64,000 nt of DNA from Candidatus Hydrogenedentota bacterium (GTDB lineage: Bacteria > Hydrogenedentota > Hydrogenedentia > Hydrogenedentales > CAITNO01). This document shows positions 1,430 to 60,521 of this stretch, one piece after another; within the stretch, counting starts at the first letter, position 1, and each line of letters begins with the position of its first letter. Under the pieces are notes generated by a model that was given only the letters and a program-made list of their open reading frames with translations, did no database searches and had not been told where the DNA came from. Both the position numbers and the translations under genes were made by a program. Where the stretch lies: the NCBI GenBank assembly GCA_903893795.1, contig CAITNO010000074.1, positions 25,966 to 89,965 on the forward strand, in the 5' to 3' direction.

Positions 1430-3424
1430 GTGAACGCGCCGGGGTATCCCTGGTGCCGCGCCGCGATCCTTGGCGGTGCGTTGTGGATGATCGCCGCGGT
1501 CGGTGTTGCGGCAAAAGACAGCGCCGCCTATCTGTGGCCTTTTGATCGTACTCCCGATCTGTCCTCCAGTTTCGGAGAATACCGTGCCGGGCGTTTCCAC
1601 ATGGGGGTGGACCTCTCCACCAATGGGGCCATTGGAGTGCCCGTCCGCGCTGCGGCCGACGGCCACATTTCGCGCCTGCGCTGCTCGCCCTGGGGCTATG
1701 GCAAAGCCGTCTACCTCACCTTCAACGACGGTTACACGGCCGTGTACGGCCACCTCTCGGGTTTCCGCGACGAACTGCGCGACTACGTGCGCCGTGAGCA
1801 GCACAAGCGCGAATCGTACACGCTGGAATTGGAAATCGGCCCGGGGCAGTTTCCCGTGAAGCGGGGCGAAATCATCGCCTTCAGCGGCGACACCGGGATA
1901 GGTCCGGCGCACCTGCATTTTGAACTGCGAGACAAGGACAACCGCGCCGTCAGCCCGCGCCTGCTCGGCATGAACTGGCCCGATACGGAACCGCCCGTTT
2001 TCAAATCCGTGATGGTGGCCCCGCGTGTTCCGGCCTCGCGTGTGGAGGGTGATGTGCTGCCGCTGGTGCGGAAAGCGGAACACATCCCCCTCAATCCCCC
2101 TTCAAAGGGGGACTTGAGGAAAGGGGAGCCCAAGGGGAAAGCGGCGTGGTCCTGCGCTCCCGTGCATGTGCAGGGCGAATTTGCCGTGGCCGTGGACCTG
2201 GTGGACCCGACACCGGCCGGAAACAAACTGGGCATTCATGATGCAAAGCTCATTGCCCCCGACGGCAGCACCGTGTTCGAGGTGCGCCATGACACCATAC
2301 CCTACGACGAGCACGGCGCCGCCTTTGCCTATCATCCCGCCTTTAACGACGAGGGGCACTTCCTGCTGCTGTGGCGCTGGCCAGGAAATGCCGCCACGAG
2401 CGATGCGGTCAGTAAGGGTGACGGTTGGTGCAGTGCCCCCGAAAAGGAGCTCCGTTACCGCATCGAAGTGGTGGACTTCATGGGCAATGCCGCAACGCTG
2501 GAACTGCCCATCCTCCCAGGCATGGACAAAAAGCCCGAGACAAAACCCAAGACCGAAAAGGCGGTTGAAGACAAGAGCGACGGAAGTTTGACCGTGGATG
2601 CGCCCGGCACCTTTCTGGTGGCAACGGCAAGCTTTCCCACGGCGGAGACACGGGCACCCGAACTGGTCATCGACGGCAAGCCCGCCGTTGACACACCTTT
2701 CTTCGCGGTGGACAAACGCAGCTTCCGCGCGGCATGGCAACCGACACCGGGAAAACGAATCACGGTTGGCGCGACCCATCCTCGGCTTGCCGCAGAGCCG
2801 ATTGTCTTGGAAACGGTCGCCTCCGGCGCGGCCCGCACACTCCAATGGGAAAAGGGTCCAAAACTGGAGATCCCCGCCGGCGCGGCCTGCGGACCGCTCT
2901 TCCTCCGCGCTGAATCCCTTGACGGGGGAGCGTGGCGCCTCTGGCCCGACACCGCCCCGTTGGCCGCCGCGGCCGAAATCTCACTGCCCCTGCCCGAGGG
3001 TCTGCGCGATCCCGCACATGCCGCCGTCGCGCGGCGCGGCGGAAGCGGATGGAACTGGCTGAAATCGGCGCGGCATGGCGATCTGCTGACGGCGCACACG
3101 GAGCATCTCGGCGATTTCCGAATCATTGAAGACAACCAGCCGCCGCGGGAAAAGGAATTCACCGCAGGCGGCGCGGCACAGGGTGCGTCGTCCCGACCGC
3201 GCATCCACGCCTCGGTTGCCGATGCGGACAGCGGCATTGCCGCCTGGGCGCTGCGCTGTGACGGGCGCTGGCTGCTCGCCTCCTATGACCCCGAAGCCGG
3301 GACAATTGACTGGGAACGAGACGAGGACCTGGCCCCCGGCACGCATGAAATAACCCTCACGCTGACCGACAACGCGGGCAACAGTGCCGCGTCGAAACAT
3401 GCCGTCATCCTTCCGAAGAAATAG
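1430..3424 (+). CDS. M23-family peptidoglycan endopeptidase with C-terminal beta-rich region
   Basis: HMGVDLS...GPAHLHFELRDKDN LytM/M23 motifs; GTG start at 1430 just after the upstream stop, followed by a signal peptide; the longer ORF start at 1160 overlaps the PPIase out of frame. Confidence 0.85.
   Translation: MNAPGYPWCRAAILGGALWMIAAVGVAAKDSAAYLWPFDRTPDLSSSFGEYRAGRFHMGVDLSTNGAIGVPVRAAADGHISRLRCSPWGYGKAVYLTFNDGYTAVYGHLSGFRDELRDYVRREQHKRESYTLELEIGPGQFPVKRGEIIAFSGDTGIGPAHLHFELRDKDNRAVSPRLLGMNWPDTEPPVFKSVMVAPRVPASRVEGDVLPLVRKAEHIPLNPPSKGDLRKGEPKGKAAWSCAPVHVQGEFAVAVDLVDPTPAGNKLGIHDAKLIAPDGSTVFEVRHDTIPYDEHGAAFAYHPAFNDEGHFLLLWRWPGNAATSDAVSKGDGWCSAPEKELRYRIEVVDFMGNAATLELPILPGMDKKPETKPKTEKAVEDKSDGSLTVDAPGTFLVATASFPTAETRAPELVIDGKPAVDTPFFAVDKRSFRAAWQPTPGKRITVGATHPRLAAEPIVLETVASGAARTLQWEKGPKLEIPAGAACGPLFLRAESLDGGAWRLWPDTAPLAAAAEISLPLPEGLRDPAHAAVARRGGSGWNWLKSARHGDLLTAHTEHLGDFRIIEDNQPPREKEFTAGGAAQGASSRPRIHASVADADSGIAAWALRCDGRWLLASYDPEAGTIDWERDEDLAPGTHEITLTLTDNAGNSAASKHAVILPKK
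2082..2114. repeat. Interspersed palindromic element, family A, copy 1, inside the M23 CDS
   Basis: acatccccctcaatcccccttcaaagggggact; equals the reverse complement of 33548-33580 with one mismatch. Confidence 0.85.
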
Positions 3425-33449: not shown

Positions 33450-33547
33450 AGCGTCGGGCGGAAATGCCTGCCGGGGATACCGATAACTGGTCGAAGCCTG
33501 TCGCAGGCAATTGAATACGGCATAAGCGAAGGCAGCGAAATGCTTTA

Positions 33548-33580
33548 AGTCCCCCTTTGAAGGGGGATTTAGGGGGATGT
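33548..33580. repeat. Interspersed palindromic element, family A, copy 2
   Basis: agtccccctttgaagggggatttagggggatgt; inverted copy of 2082-2114. Confidence 0.85.
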
Positions 33581-33655: not shown

Positions 33656-33703
33656 GGGGCATACACCCCCCGGCCCTTCGGGCCACCCCCCTCAAGGGGG
33701 GAC
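33656..33703. repeat. Interspersed palindromic element, family B, copy 1
   Basis: ggggcatacaccccccggcccttcgggccacccccctcaaggggggac; near-identical to 45448-45493. Confidence 0.8.
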
Positions 33704-33913
33704 TGGCCGGAGGCCTTGGTGAACGCCCAAAGTTCGACAGGCGAGGGCGCCTGTCCCACACTCTCTGTGCAGGAGACACGATGTTCCCTATCGATCAACA
33801 GGTCTGGCGATGGCGCGGCGCAGCCGCTAACGCATAAGCTCCGCCTGATTTCCCCTTTTTCTGTTGACTCGATTTGGCCGCCCATGGCGGCATGACCATA
33901 AAGGAACATCCCC

Positions 33914-45447: not shown

Positions 45448-45493
45448 GGGGCATACACCCCCGGCCCTTCGGGCCACCCCCCTCCAGGGGGGA
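45448..45493. repeat. Interspersed palindromic element, family B, copy 2
   Basis: ggggcatacacccccggcccttcgggccacccccctccaggggggatc; cf. 33656-33703. Confidence 0.8.
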
Positions 45494-45625
45494 TCAGAGG
45501 CAGCACGACTCCGAACCCTATTGGCTGCGGCTCTGCTGCTCCATAATATTCCGTGGTTCAGCTCTTTTCTATGCCTTGGATGCGGCTATCGGCTGTGCCA
45601 GGTTGTCTCATCCTGTCCATTCATG

Positions 45626-48324: not shown

Positions 48325-49737
48325 CTACGGCGTCAGCACCACACGAAAACCATATTGGCCGTCAGTCACGTCCGGCGCGGGATTGACACGGTCTGCAGAG
48401 CGGGCCCACGTGTAAAGTTGGTACCAGGAGCCGCCACGGGCTGTTCGGTTCGAACCCCTGGGCGTATCCACCCAGGCTTGCCCTCCCGTGGGGGCGCCGG
48501 TATAGTCCGGATGATAGTCATCTTCACACCATTCGAACACATTTCCGCTCATGTCATACAGGCCCCAGGCATTTGGAAGCTTCTGGCCCACAATGTGCGC
48601 GTATTGCTCGCCTGCCGACCATGCGTTATCCGCATACCATGCGTAATCGCCGATCATGGAGCCGTTCGGGTCGTCGCCCCAATAGAACCGTGTCGTCGTC
48701 CCCGCCCGGGCCGCATATTCCCGCTCCGCCTCCGAGGGCAGCCGAAATGTCTTGCCAGTATCGCTGTTTACCGCGGTCAAGAACGCCTTCGCGTCGTTCC
48801 AGGACACGAGCGAGGCCGGGCTGCTCCCGTTGGCAAGCTCAAAAGCCTGGCCCGTCCATGGCGAGGTCCCCATCACCGCTTTCCACTGCGATTTGGTGAT
48901 CGAATACTTACCCATCCAGAACCCGGGCAGCGTCACCAGGTGCTGCGGCTGTTCATTGGCGACCCGACCCTGCTCGTTGTCCGGGCTGCCCATGGTAAAC
49001 TCCCCGCTCGGAATCCACTTCAACACCAGCGACACATTGCCCGGCAGCAGCACGGTCTGCGACGCGCCTGCGGAGGGCTCCGCCAGCTTGATGTAGTCAC
49101 TGTACACGGCGGAGTTGTTGCCGGCGCCGTCAAGGTACTGCGCGCGAACGGTGTGATTGCCAAGGCCTGCCGGCAGCGTGTAAGGGCGCGTGGCCTGGGG
49201 CGCTTCCCAGGCGGTCCAGTGCGCGCCGTCATCACTGAAACGCACGCGCGACACGCCCGAACCCGAGCCGTCCGCCCAGGTCAGTCCCAGCGTGACGGAT
49301 CGGCTGTTCGTGGTCGCGGCACCGCTGTTAATGGTGATGCCGCCCGTGGGAGGCGCGGTATCCAGCAGGATGTAGTCGCTGCACACCGCGGAACTGTTGT
49401 TTGCCTTGTCCAGGAACTGGACCCGCACCGTCCTGTGGCCGTCCGGTCCCACCGGCAGGGCGTAGGTGTCAGACGCGGCAAGCGCCTGCCACGCCGTCCA
49501 ATGCGCGCCGTCATCGCTGAAACGCATCCGCGACACGCCCGAGCCCCCGACGCCGTCGCTCCAGGTGAGCGCCAGGAGGACGTTGAGTGTGTTGGTGGCG
49601 CTGCGGTTGTTGTTGATGACGATGGTGCCTGTCGGGGGCGTGGTATCCACGGCGCGGGCGCCCGACGGGGCAAACCCTGCAAGCGCCGCCAACATTAATG
49701 TATAAACAATCCCTTGAGCCTTTAACGTGCTTTTCAT
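48325..49737 (-). CDS. Secreted protein: two Ig-like repeats plus C-terminal FGE-sulfatase (SUMF1/CLec-fold) domain, paralogue 1
   Basis: TPPTGTIVINNNRSATNTLNVLLALTWSDGVGGSGVSRMRFSDDGAHW repeats; FTMGSPDNEQGRVANEQPQHLVTLPGFWMGKYSITKSQWKAVMG...RTARGGSWYQLYTWARSADR...YGFRVVL. Confidence 0.88.
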   Translation of the reverse strand: MKSTLKAQGIVYTLMLAALAGFAPSGARAVDTTPPTGTIVINNNRSATNTLNVLLALTWSDGVGGSGVSRMRFSDDGAHWTAWQALAASDTYALPVGPDGHRTVRVQFLDKANNSSAVCSDYILLDTAPPTGGITINSGAATTNSRSVTLGLTWADGSGSGVSRVRFSDDGAHWTAWEAPQATRPYTLPAGLGNHTVRAQYLDGAGNNSAVYSDYIKLAEPSAGASQTVLLPGNVSLVLKWIPSGEFTMGSPDNEQGRVANEQPQHLVTLPGFWMGKYSITKSQWKAVMGTSPWTGQAFELANGSSPASLVSWNDAKAFLTAVNSDTGKTFRLPSEAEREYAARAGTTTRFYWGDDPNGSMIGDYAWYADNAWSAGEQYAHIVGQKLPNAWGLYDMSGNVFEWCEDDYHPDYTGAPTGGQAWVDTPRGSNRTARGGSWYQLYTWARSADRVNPAPDVTDGQYGFRVVLTP

Positions 49738-50102
49738 GGTATCCACTCCATTGTGCGGCATTCATGCCCGCGTTCACATTCGCCTGACCCGATGACCTGT
49801 AACGGTCGCTCCGTGCGGACTTGTTGCATGAATGTTATACAGATGGTGGGGCGCAAACATCCGTGGAAAGTACGTTCCCTGCTGGATCCCTGCGAAAAAG
49901 ATGCAAAAGGCTCTCGAATGTTTCCCCCGGGAATGCCAATCTTTTTGTTGGGGTCCTGAATCACGGGGCGTATATTTTCGAGAGCGCCAATCAGGAGCAT
50001 TGGTTTTCCCAGGCAAAAAGAAGTTCGCCCGCCGGAAGGCGGGCGAACGAAGGTCAAGAGATGTCCCGTTGCGCCCGCTCGGGACGCAACGGCGAAAAGC
50101 GG

Positions 50103-51512
50103 CTACGGAATCCGCACGACGCGCATGCCGATGGACCAGCCATTGGCTAATGGTCCATACTTAGTGCGGTTTGCAGACCGGAAGGCCCCCACGAGGTCAG
50201 ACAACCCGTAATCATGAGATGCCCGCCGTTCAGCCCTCGGAGAGTCCACCCAGGCACTGCCGTCCGTCGGCGCCCCGCTGTAACTGGAATGCCAGTCGTC
50301 TTCACACCACTCCGCAACGTTGCCGGCCATGTCGTACAGGCCCCACGCATTGGGTTTCTTCTGGCCCACCAAATGCGCGTAATTCTCGCCGACGTCCATC
50401 GTGTTTCCCTTCCACCAGGCATATTGACTTCCCGTCGCATCGCTTCCATCATCACCCCAGTAGTATTGCGTGGTCGTTCCCGCGCGGAGGGCGTATTGGA
50501 ACTGCGCCTCCGAGGGCAGCCGGAAAGTCTTACCGGTACAGGTGTTCAGTGCCGTCAGGATGGTGTGCGCGTCATTCCAATTGATAAACACTGCGGGCGC
50601 ATTCGCGACACCGAGCTCGTTCGGATTCGTGTTCGGCTCATACCCCGTCAGCGCCTGCCTTTGGGCGTTGGTCAGTTCATACTTGCCCATCCAGAAGCCG
50701 CTCAGCGTCACCGTGTGCTGCGGCCATTCCCAGTTCATCGCGTTCGGGTCCGTATCCGGACTGCCCATGACGAAACTCCCCGCCGGGATCCACCTCATCA
50801 CCAGCGGCACACTGCCCGGGAGCATGATCGTCTCCTCGTTCGGGTCCGCCACGAGCTTGATGTAGTCGTTGTACACCGGTGAATAGTTGTTCGCGGCGTC
50901 CAGATATTGCACCCGCACCGTCTGGTAGCCGAGCGTCGCTTTCGGCAGCTTGTAGGCTTTCGTGGCGGTGGGGTACATCCAGTTGGTCCAGGTCGAACCA
51001 TTGTCGCTGAAGCGCATGCGGACCACGCCCGAACCGCCCGCATTGTCGGCAAAGGTCAACCCGAGCGTGACCGACTGCTTCGTCGTGGTCAGGTCGCCCT
51101 TGTTGATGATGATGGCGCCCGTCGGCGCCACCGTGTCCAGCCGGATATAGTCGCTGTAGGTTATGGAGCGGTTGTTGGCCAGGTCGATGAACTGAACCCT
51201 CACCGTCTTGTATCCGTCCCCGGCAGGAAGCTGGTAGGACCGCGACGGTGTCAGGCTCTCATAGGCCGTCCAGGTCGAGCCGTCATTGCTGAAGCGCATC
51301 CGCGCCACGCCCGAGCCGCCCGCATTGTCGGCCCAGGTCATTGCGATGGTCACATTGCGCGAGTTCGTGCACGATTGGTTGCCGTTGATGACAATCGTGC
51401 CCGTCGGGGGCGTCGTGTCTGTCACCGCACGCGCCGCCGGCTGCGGCAGCACCGCAAGCGCCAGCAGCACGGCCGCCAGTGTGAGTCCAAAACCCAAAGA
51501 CTTCTTGTTCAT
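50103..51512 (-). CDS. Secreted Ig-like/FGE-sulfatase protein, paralogue 2
   Basis: Same architecture; FVMGSPDTDPNAMNWEWPQHTVTLSGFWMGKYELTNAQ; C-terminus SIGMRVVRIP. Confidence 0.88.
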   Translation of the reverse strand: MNKKSLGFGLTLAAVLLALAVLPQPAARAVTDTTPPTGTIVINGNQSCTNSRNVTIAMTWADNAGGSGVARMRFSNDGSTWTAYESLTPSRSYQLPAGDGYKTVRVQFIDLANNRSITYSDYIRLDTVAPTGAIIINKGDLTTTKQSVTLGLTFADNAGGSGVVRMRFSDNGSTWTNWMYPTATKAYKLPKATLGYQTVRVQYLDAANNYSPVYNDYIKLVADPNEETIMLPGSVPLVMRWIPAGSFVMGSPDTDPNAMNWEWPQHTVTLSGFWMGKYELTNAQRQALTGYEPNTNPNELGVANAPAVFINWNDAHTILTALNTCTGKTFRLPSEAQFQYALRAGTTTQYYWGDDGSDATGSQYAWWKGNTMDVGENYAHLVGQKKPNAWGLYDMAGNVAEWCEDDWHSSYSGAPTDGSAWVDSPRAERRASHDYGLSDLVGAFRSANRTKYGPLANGWSIGMRVVRIP

Positions 51513-51561
51513 CGCATACACTCCGTTGTGATTGGCACCGCGCATCATCCCATTCGGCAAA

Positions 51562-51590
51562 GCCACCCCCCGGACAGTTCCGGGGGCGGC
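51562..51590 (-). terminator. GC-rich hairpin downstream of FGE paralogue 3
   Basis: gccaccccccgga-cagt-tccgggggcggc then cactaaattc. Confidence 0.5.
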
Positions 51591-51618
51591 ACTAAATTCA
51601 TACTTCAGTCTTCAACAA

Positions 51619-53022
51619 CTACCTGACGAGGCGGAAACCGAAGAAGTAGTGACCGCCGGTATTATTACTGCGGTGCGCAGAACGGGCATAGGTCCAGTCA
51701 CCCGCAAAGCAACCACCATGCAACACGTGGTAACTGCCTGCGGGAGCAGACATCCACGCACTGCCATCGGTCGGCGCGCCCGTGTAGCTGTCATGATAAT
51801 AGTCCTGGCAGTATTCCAGCACATTTCCGCACATGTCGTAGAAGCCCCAGGCATTCGGAAGCTTCAGTCCCACCACATGCGCATACTGGTCGTTTAGACA
51901 ATCATTATAGTACCAGGCGTTGGCGTCAATGATGGAATAGCTCGGGTCGTCGCCCCACCAGAACCGGGTCGTCGTGCCCGCACGGGCGGTGTATTCCGAT
52001 TGCGCCTCGGAGGGCAGGTGAAAGGTTTTGCCTGTCAACGCGTTCAGCGCCGTGACAAAGGACTGTATATCATCCCAGGAAACGCCCACCGCGGGAGAGT
52101 CCAGGTCGGAAGACACGTGGGTATAACTGGTCCAGGGCGTGGTGCCCATGACCGCGTACCACTGCCGCTTGGTCACCTGGAATTTGCCCATCCAGAAGCC
52201 GCTGGCGAACGTCACGGAGTGCTGCGGACCCTCATCGGCGCCGCGCAGAGACTCCGTGACAGGACTGCCCATGGCGAAAGTCCCTGCCGATACCCACTTC
52301 ATCACCAGCGGCACACTGCCCGGGAGCAGGGTAGTCTCCTCGGTGCCGGCGGCGGGTTCTACCAGCTTGATGTAGTCGTTGTACACGGGCGAGTAGTTGT
52401 TCGCGGCGTCCAGGTACTGCACCCGCACGGTCTGGTAGCCGAGGTCGGCTTTCGGCAACTTGTAGGCTTTTGTGGCGGTGGGGTACATCCAGTTGGTCCA
52501 GGTGGAGCCGTTGTCGCTGAAGCGCATGCGCGCCACGCCCGAACCGCCCGCATTGTCGGCATAGGTCAGCCCCAGCGTCACCGACTGCTTCGTCGTGGTC
52601 AAATCACCCTTGTTGATGATGATGGTGCCCGTCGGCGCCACCGTGTCCAGCCGGATGTAATCGCTGTAGGTGATCGAGCGGTTGTTCGCCAGGTCGATAA
52701 ACTGCACCCGCACCGTCTTGTAGCCGTCCCCGGCAGGAAGCTGGTACGACCGCGACGCCGTCAGGCTTTCATAGGCCGTCCAGGTCGAGCCGTCATTGCT
52801 GAAGCGCATGCGGGCCACGCCTGAACCGCCCACCTCGTCGGCCCAAGTCATCGCGATCGTCACATTGCGCGAGTTCGTGCACGATTGGTTGCCGTTGATG
52901 ACAATCGTGCCCGTCGGGGCCGTCGTGTCCGTCACCGCACCCGCGACCGGCTGCGGCATCACCCCAAGCGCCAGCAGCACCGCCGCCAGCATGAGCCCAA
53001 GTCCCAATGATGTCTTTTTCAT
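51619..53022 (-). CDS. Secreted Ig-like/FGE-sulfatase protein, paralogue 3
   Basis: N-terminal two thirds almost identical to paralogue 2; FAMGSPVTESLRGADEGPQHSVTFASGFWMGKFQVTKRQW; VLHGGCFAGDWTYARSAHR. Confidence 0.88.
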   Translation of the reverse strand: MKKTSLGLGLMLAAVLLALGVMPQPVAGAVTDTTAPTGTIVINGNQSCTNSRNVTIAMTWADEVGGSGVARMRFSNDGSTWTAYESLTASRSYQLPAGDGYKTVRVQFIDLANNRSITYSDYIRLDTVAPTGTIIINKGDLTTTKQSVTLGLTYADNAGGSGVARMRFSDNGSTWTNWMYPTATKAYKLPKADLGYQTVRVQYLDAANNYSPVYNDYIKLVEPAAGTEETTLLPGSVPLVMKWVSAGTFAMGSPVTESLRGADEGPQHSVTFASGFWMGKFQVTKRQWYAVMGTTPWTSYTHVSSDLDSPAVGVSWDDIQSFVTALNALTGKTFHLPSEAQSEYTARAGTTTRFWWGDDPSYSIIDANAWYYNDCLNDQYAHVVGLKLPNAWGFYDMCGNVLEYCQDYYHDSYTGAPTDGSAWMSAPAGSYHVLHGGCFAGDWTYARSAHRSNNTGGHYFFGFRLVR

Positions 53023-59081: not shown

Positions 59082-60521
59082 ATGGACCAGAATGAAGCAC
59101 TCTACCGAAAAAGAGTGGCGCAGAAGATCGAGGAAGTGCGCACGAGCGGCGGGGCAGAACTGCATCTTCCCTTTTACGCGCTGACGTCGCTTCCGGAGTC
59201 ACTGGGCCAACTCACGCAGTTGCAGGTCCTCGACCTTTCCAACGGCGGCCTAACGTCGCTTCCGGAGTCACTGGGGCAGCTCACGCAGTTGCAGGTCCTC
59301 GACCTTTCCAACAACAACCTGACGGTGCTCCCGGAATCGCTGGGCCAACTCGCGCAGTTGAAGACACTCAATATTCGTGGCAACGCCTTGACATCGCTTC
59401 CGGAGTCGCTGAGCCAACTTACGCTGTTGAGCTGGCTCGACCTCAGTGGCAACCCCCTGACAGTAATTCCGGAGTCATTGGGTCGGCTCACGCAGTTGTA
59501 CGGACTGGGTCTCGACGGCAAACAGACGCTTCCCGGCCTGGCAGCGTCACAAGCAACCGTTGTCTTTGAGATTTCCCTTGATCAACTGGATAAGGAGGCA
59601 CAGCGACTTGCGGAACAGGCGATTGAGGATGCGCGGAGAAGCGACGGGACCGGGTTAGACCTCTCCTTCAGCCGCTTGACCTCGCTTCCAGAGTCACTGG
59701 GCCGGCTCACGCAGTTGGGGAAACTCGACCTTCGCGGCAACCGTCTGATGCCGCTTCCGCAGTCGCTCAGCCAACTCACGCAGTTGAGCTATCTCGACCT
59801 TTCTTTCAATCTGTTGAAAGAGCTTCCGGAGTGGCTGTGCCAGCTCAAGCAGCTGCAGGTCCTCGACCTTTCCCAGAACCTCCTGATGGCGCTTCCCAAG
59901 TCGTTGGGCCAACTCACGCGGTTAAGAGAATTACGTCTTTCTGACAACGCCCTGACGGCGCTTCCAGAGTCACTGGGCCAGCTCACACAGTTGGAGCGGC
60001 TCGACCTCGGCAGCAACGCCCTGGTGACACTTCCGGAGTCGCTGGGCCAGCTTGCACAGTTGGCCGTGCTCCGTCTTTCCTTCAATGACCTGACGTCGCT
60101 GCCGGAGTCGTTGGGCCAACTCGCACAGTTGACCCATCTCAACCTTTTCCGCAATGACCTGAAGTCGCTTCCGGAGTCGCTGGGCCGACTCACACAACTG
60201 AAGGTCCTCGAACTTGCCAATAACGGCCTGAAGTCGCTTCCGGAGTCGCTGGGCCAACTCACGCAGTTGAGTTATCTCGACCTTTCTTTCAACCATCTGA
60301 AGTCGCTTCCGGAGTCGCTGGGTCAGCTCATGCAGTTGAAGACACTCAATATTTGCGGCAACGCCTTGACGTCGCTGCCGGAGTCACTGGGTCGGCTCAC
60401 GCAGTTGCCGGAGTTATATCTCGACGACAACCCGCTGCATCCGGATCTGGCCGAGGCGTACAAGAAGGGTACTGCGGCGGTCTTGGCCTACTTGCGGGAA
60501 CTTCCGCCAGAGCGGTCATAG
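59082..60521 (+). CDS. Leucine-rich repeat protein (23-residue LRRs, two repeat blocks)
   Basis: LTSLPESLGQLTQLQVLDLSNN-type repeats; internal second cap EAQRLAEQAIEDARRSDGTGLDLSFSRLTSLPESLG; C-terminus NPLHPDLAEAYKKGTAAVLAYLREL. Confidence 0.9.
   Translation: MDQNEALYRKRVAQKIEEVRTSGGAELHLPFYALTSLPESLGQLTQLQVLDLSNGGLTSLPESLGQLTQLQVLDLSNNNLTVLPESLGQLAQLKTLNIRGNALTSLPESLSQLTLLSWLDLSGNPLTVIPESLGRLTQLYGLGLDGKQTLPGLAASQATVVFEISLDQLDKEAQRLAEQAIEDARRSDGTGLDLSFSRLTSLPESLGRLTQLGKLDLRGNRLMPLPQSLSQLTQLSYLDLSFNLLKELPEWLCQLKQLQVLDLSQNLLMALPKSLGQLTRLRELRLSDNALTALPESLGQLTQLERLDLGSNALVTLPESLGQLAQLAVLRLSFNDLTSLPESLGQLAQLTHLNLFRNDLKSLPESLGRLTQLKVLELANNGLKSLPESLGQLTQLSYLDLSFNHLKSLPESLGQLMQLKTLNICGNALTSLPESLGRLTQLPELYLDDNPLHPDLAEAYKKGTAAVLAYLRELPPERS

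Follow-up and report, generated by a model that had tools for sequence, protein, structure and literature searches.

How does a short palindromic repeat come to lie within the reading frame of a peptidase gene, and does it matter to the encoded protein? This question is raised by a stretch of 64,000 nucleotides (hereafter the window; positions 25966-89965 of contig C74 in the source genome, G000), in which a block within an M23 peptidase gene recurs in the hisF-trpE spacer. The original prediction described this block as 33 nt long, inverted in the spacer with one mismatch, translated in the peptidase gene without a break of frame, and comparable to the palindromic elements of Rickettsia. According to the analysis presented here, the block very probably belongs to a family of short, non-coding palindromic repeats, REP/MITE-like and mobile in appearance, of which one copy was inserted into the M23 gene within the genus.

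Repeat elements in the window

The dispersed, palindromic repeat, in the form referred to here as type A, has a 34-nt consensus, ACATCCCCCTAAATCCCCCTTCRAAGGGGGACTT. This consensus is present without any change behind hisF and reads ACATCCCCCTCAATCCCCCTTCAAAGGGGGACTT in the M23 gene (Table 1). The two copies are inverted relative to each other and identical at 33 of 34 positions (97%); the predicted inverted match with a single mismatch was recovered, its length being 34 and not 33 nt. The mismatch, CTA to CTC, is the sole departure of the M23 copy from the consensus and is synonymous in the M23 frame. A 20-nt core, searched with up to three mismatches, matched the window four times compared to no match in 100 shuffles, and nhmmer detected the two type A copies with E-values of 1.6e-12 and 5.6e-14 using a model built from genome loci that include both of them. 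A search of the window against Rfam gave no match.

Type A has the layout ACATCCCCC-TAAAT-CCCCCTTCRAAGGGGG-ACTT(AAG). A second form, type B, has a short hairpin of variable and exchangeable sequence in place of the TAAAT linker, and the unit measures 41-50 nt. One such element, which the original prediction did not include, faces the type A copy behind hisF in inverted orientation, and the spacer thus carries an A/B inverted pair. Perfect stems of 5 bp or more were found in 93% of 43 distinct type B linkers, compared to 4% in shuffles, and the linkers comprised 16 different stems; in the 41-nt class, 11 cells were changed on both sides of the pair, a value reached in none of 500 shuffles. Judging from these sequences, the inner stems of type B pair by compensatory changes. 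Folding as single strands gave one hairpin for type A and two for type B. Copies of the two types frequently form inverted pairs 50-100 nt apart, and many other copies are single.

Table 1 Features of the M23 peptidase gene and of the palindromic repeat in the window.
Feature	Position	Strand	Description and evidence
M23 (LytM) peptidase	1430..3424	+	664 aa with beta-rich C-terminal region; ORF, Pfam, structure model and fold match
Left flank of M23 copy	2068..2081	+	GCGGAAAGCGGAAC; half of an imperfect direct repeat (11/14), possible target duplication
Type A element	2082..2115	+	Within M23 peptidase gene; translated in frame, (H)IPLNPPSKGDL
Right flank of M23 copy	2116..2129	+	GAGGAAAGGGGAGC; second half of the imperfect 14-nt direct repeat
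Type A element	33547..33580	-	Exact consensus; intergenic, after hisF
Type B element	33663..33705	+	Palindrome with C-run and inner hairpin GGCCC-TTC-GGGCC; nhmmer type B E=2.1e-5 for 33663-33703
Degenerate type B-like element	45455..45494	+	CACCCCCGGCCCTTCGGGCCACCCCCCTCCAGGGGGG; same layout, weak match (nhmmer E=0.032)

The window contains other repeats as well. Inverted pairs with 40-nt arms are located at 45158-45197/45349-45388 (88% complementary, GGATATACAGGATGCACAGGATTAA-like, 151 nt apart) and at 29857-29896/30077-30116 (80% complementary, 180-nt spacer), the latter seemingly a different dispersed palindrome, and the near-perfect 26-nt inverted repeat at 63911-63936/63958-63983 (GTACCGCAGGCGTCCCGCCTGCCACG) has a 21-nt spacer. 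An array of 69-nt (23-codon) repeats, 60-74% alike and with one interruption, occupies 59084-60499, and a block of about 1.5 kb is present in three diverged tandem copies at 48456-52879.

The copy in the M23 peptidase gene

The M23 protein matches Pfam Peptidase_M23 with E=2.7e-14, and its nearest named relatives are from Candidatus Hydrogenedentes MAGs. Its ORF starts with GTG and is free of stops through the repeat up to its end, in line with the prediction of an unbroken frame, and from this maintained frame we infer that the copy is translated. The peptide derived from it is HIPLNPPSKGDL. In an alignment of orthologues, HIPLNPPSKGDL together with a few residues formed an insertion that is present in G000 and its congener G002, i.e. 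in two of the three species of the genus, and for which the site is empty in the third species, G001, as it is in 31 orthologues from other genera. The insertion is limited to the genus, and the segment was not conserved in orthologues from genomes lacking the repeat. The G002 copy is the exact 34-nt consensus at the same site. The net gain in length is a multiple of three in both species, amounting to 48 nt for G000 and 33 nt for G002. Beyond what had been predicted, the translated insertion in G000 exceeds the length of the repeat, and 34 plus 14 nt add up to the 48-nt difference from the empty orthologue. At this site, a loss in G001 may have taken place instead of a gain in G000 and G002.

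The protein was modelled with AlphaFold using an alignment of 16 sequences, from which one locus with a stop was left out, resulting in a mean pLDDT of 85. Foldseek assigned a LytM fold to the peptidase part. The residues of the insert, 196-207, form a loop with pLDDT<50 between the beta strands 189-191 and 210-213 and are one of two long stretches of very low confidence. In this model, the insert occupies a disordered loop between strands.

In-frame copies in other proteins

In-frame copies were found in seven proteins, the M23 peptidase and six others identified by Pfam: an FGE-sulfatase/HZS_alpha protein (FGE) with an insert between Pfam domains, an NPCBM/HZS_alpha protein (NPCBM) with two inserts, one of them within a domain, a HlyD_D23/HMBD metal-efflux adaptor (CusB-type) with an insert between Pfam domains, a PMT_2/TPR membrane protein (glycosyltransferase; orthologues at loci L032 and L243), an alpha-L-arabinofuranosidase and a rhamnosidase-like protein. 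The position of the insert is a loop, linker or surface in M23, FGE and the CusB-type adaptor. A copy in a GH20 protein is close to the N-terminus and may be upstream of the real start. The copies in other genes are in phase: when the type A copies of three species were scanned for coding potential, seven had clear coding on the same strand on both sides, all seven being in frame, and no copy that clearly breaks a frame was detected. At least 9 of 82 type A copies (~11%) are located in genes, the glycosyltransferase copies included.

Relatives with an empty site were found for five of the six further proteins (arabinofuranosidase, rhamnosidase-like protein, NPCBM at both sites, FGE and glycosyltransferase), i.e. 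for six of the seven host proteins if M23 is counted; for the metal-efflux adaptor, no orthologue spanning the insert site was recovered. The rhamnosidase copy adds 45 nt and has flanks with 8/9 identity. As the MAG of G001 has 7% contamination and its two rhamnosidase alleles are on different contigs, these alleles may stem from two strains. The loop of the glycosyltransferase contains four tandem elements in G000, all translated and comprising ~100 residues, fewer elements in G001 and none in G015. At the FGE site (L286, L287), a type A element in G000 and a type B element in G001 are in the same place, and a similar A/B difference between species was seen at an intergenic site (L009 vs L251/L208). 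By their sequences, the elements at the FGE and L009 sites look as if A and B had been exchanged in place.

The consensus is free of stops in four of the six frames, and all four are used in host proteins. The IPLNPPSKGDL frame is found in M23, the adaptor, the rhamnosidase and, in degenerate form, at site 1 of NPCBM; the HPPKSPFEGGL frame at site 2 of NPCBM and in GH20; the KSPFEGGFRGM frame in FGE, the arabinofuranosidase and the glycosyltransferase of G001; and the GPPSKGDLGGC frame, also of SPPLKGDLGGC type, in the glycosyltransferase of G000. The peptides, ~12 residues in length, have a high content of Pro, Gly and Lys and are unrelated between frames. Since four frames are open, in-frame landings are easily tolerated.

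Copy number and distribution

Copies were counted genome-wide by pattern matching together with the loci around them. In G000 (7.0 Mb, 159 contigs), 67 occurrences of the palindromic core CCCCCTTYRAAGGGGG were counted compared to one of a reversed control pattern; the core counts were 142 for G001 and 55 for G002, with controls at 0-1. Several family members have no core copies; G025 has 34. The exact 26-nt core was found in 9 of 68 genomes and 6 of 44 genera of the phylum, and in none of 20 genomes of other phyla.

Words of the repeat are also present in cyanobacterial, Acinetobacter and about 30 enterococcal plasmids. In pAM373 (L306 601-641), CCCCCTAAATCCCCC-loop-GGGGGACTTAAG or a close form is located between the genes for TraM recognition and replication relaxation (MOBC), possibly as part of a transfer origin, and the same words are found in the same gene spacer of pTEF1 (L307 2501-2541) and of a Carnobacterium plasmid (L308 2501-2541). 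In the plasmid pGLO7428.01 of Gloeocapsa PCC 7428 (L311 601-634), a related palindrome lies in open frame within a non-ribosomal peptide synthetase gene (SPLNPPLVGDLERL). We regard it as rather improbable that the hairpin word CCCCCTAAATCCCCC-loop-GGGGGACTTRAG is a recognition site common, across phyla, to the repeats of Hydrogenedentota and cyanobacteria and to the transfer regions of enterococcal plasmids, which some nuclease or transposase would copy round genomes and which would build protein loops serially in the source genus. If this were true, the four elements in one glycosyltransferase would represent a new protein loop built serially.

Origin and maintenance of the repeat

The reading that we favour, a REP/MITE-like repeat family, would work as follows. 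From the dispersal of the element and its presence or absence among congeners, we infer both its mobility and an enzyme that copies it in trans. The majority of the copies would persist between genes, copies that break genes would be lost, and those landing in a loop or linker without disturbing the frame would survive. With regard to MITE features, inverted pairs occur, and direct repeats resembling target duplications were seen at the M23 and rhamnosidase copies only. At these two copies, a target-site duplication looks convincing but is no more than a hint: 58 solo copies gave no family-wide signal, their mean score of 1.40 being barely above the 1.10 obtained for shuffled flank pairings. 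An insertion-sequence reading of a 2.2-kb element pair (L027/L255) was rejected, as the copies enclose a host iron-sulfur oxidoreductase-like gene and the enclosed DNA is syntenic between species.

It is possible, if doubtful, that the element is an untagged variant of REPs or REPINs which is mobilised by a RAYT-type Y1 transposase of the same genome. It resembles REPINs in its size, its palindrome, its intergenic bias and the short spacer of its inverted pairs (PMC3116915, PMC3733652), and Y1_Tnp genes are present in G000, G001 and G002. However, the ends of the consensus, ACATCCCCC and GGGGGACTTAAG, carry neither a GTAG nor a CGTC tag, the palindrome (up to two mismatches) was found in none of the 36 Y1_Tnp loci examined, and G025 gave no Y1_Tnp match despite its copies.

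Another reading, which we consider unlikely, takes the in-frame peptides as adaptive, i.e. as flexible linkers or protein-diversifying modules kept by selection on the peptide. It would account for the near-constancy of the M23 element, which differs between G000 and G002 at 1 of 36 positions compared to 17.5% over 200 flanking codons and is matched in similarity by only one of the 344 windows of twelve codons in the remainder of the gene, for the arabinofuranosidase and FGE sites, each filled in two species, and for the serial accretion of elements in one glycosyltransferase loop. But orthologous copies between genes show equally little change, with flanks that differ by 15-35%, and therefore coding is not the cause of the constancy; the nucleotide sequence is maintained both within and outside genes. 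On the reading favoured above, hairpin-level constraint or homogenisation among copies would explain this, and independent insertion at one site may be a source of similarity. In addition, G001 lacks the inserts in M23, NPCBM and the arabinofuranosidase. Because unrelated peptides are used across the four frames, the peptide is probably not what is selected; most likely, it is a neutral filler.

According to a further notion, which we consider very unlikely, a protein of MOBC/Replic_Relax type spreads the hairpin as a transfer-origin-like site; it draws on the location of the hairpin words in the Enterococcus and Carnobacterium plasmids described above. Replic_Relax is absent from 22 of the 23 genomes searched, G000-G002 included, and present only in G020; the similarity amounts to 83% over 37 nt (E=0.009), and the cyanobacterial and Acinetobacter matches are without such neighbour genes. 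Finally, a chance or low-complexity resemblance, that is a coincidence of G/C runs in a peptidase with a Pro/Gly-rich loop, is refuted by the counts: runs of C and G are matched more easily than random DNA, but the exact 34-nt consensus is present at the same site in G002 and in dozens of other places, and the shuffles and reversed-pattern controls gave values of zero or near zero.

Comparison with known palindromic repeats

Within the REP/MITE-like reading, the repeat extends protein-coding palindromes, which are best known in Rickettsia, to an environmental phylum. Filled and empty sites are clear among the congeners, and the sites with no, one and four copies provide a natural series for testing the neutrality of such peptides. 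For annotation, caution is advised, as repeat DNA in translation may be the source of NPPSKGDL, SPFEGGF or PPLKGDLGG where these are seen in proteins or as short gene predictions. Within the literature searched, no open full text contained the exact words of the DNA or the peptide NPPSKGDL, and no report of the repeat was found there. The repeat is a new sequence family among the known in-frame palindromes, with unusually clear empty-site evidence.

In-frame palindromes are known in Rickettsia (PMC10969869, PMC3733652), where the elements are ~150 bp in length, encode a conserved peptide and are located inside ORFs in nearly half of the cases (PMC10969869). The predicted likeness to these elements holds for the way of working: in both cases, dispersed palindromes are in frame in unrelated functional genes. 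It does not hold for identity, as the repeat is not itself one of them. The Hydrogenedentes unit is of 34 nt (41-50 nt for type B), uses four frames with unrelated peptides, has ~11% of type A copies in genes and lacks the CGTC end tag of the Rickettsia elements; this comparison is one of descriptions.

In the REP superfamilies, one hairpin end carries the tetranucleotide GTAG or CGTC, and CGTC-tagged REPs, some Rickettsia elements included, are without a dedicated transposase (PMC3733652). Intragenic REPs are known from several phyla, with clusters encoding 43-82 residues (PMC3733652). Intragenic tagged REPs, among them those of Opitutus terrae, Thauera and Rickettsia conorii (PMC3733652), share with the Hydrogenedentes repeat that they are palindromes of 20-40 bp, often form inverted dimers and are mostly intergenic, some being in frame in genes and some clusters encoding tens of residues. 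In contrast, the Hydrogenedentes repeat has neither tag nor adjoining RAYT, and the second hairpin of its type B is exchangeable. The REPINs of Pseudomonas fluorescens (PMC3116915) likewise consist of two inverted palindromes around a short spacer that are dispersed as a unit, whereas the Hydrogenedentes copies number from tens to ~140, many of them solo, and no link to a RAYT was found. The QMITEs of Coxiella burnetii (PMC5896051), also short repeats, lengthen ORFs or run into them, in some cases in frame; they are MITEs and often change gene ends, whereas the Hydrogenedentes elements are inserted in the middle of proteins, as checked against empty orthologues.
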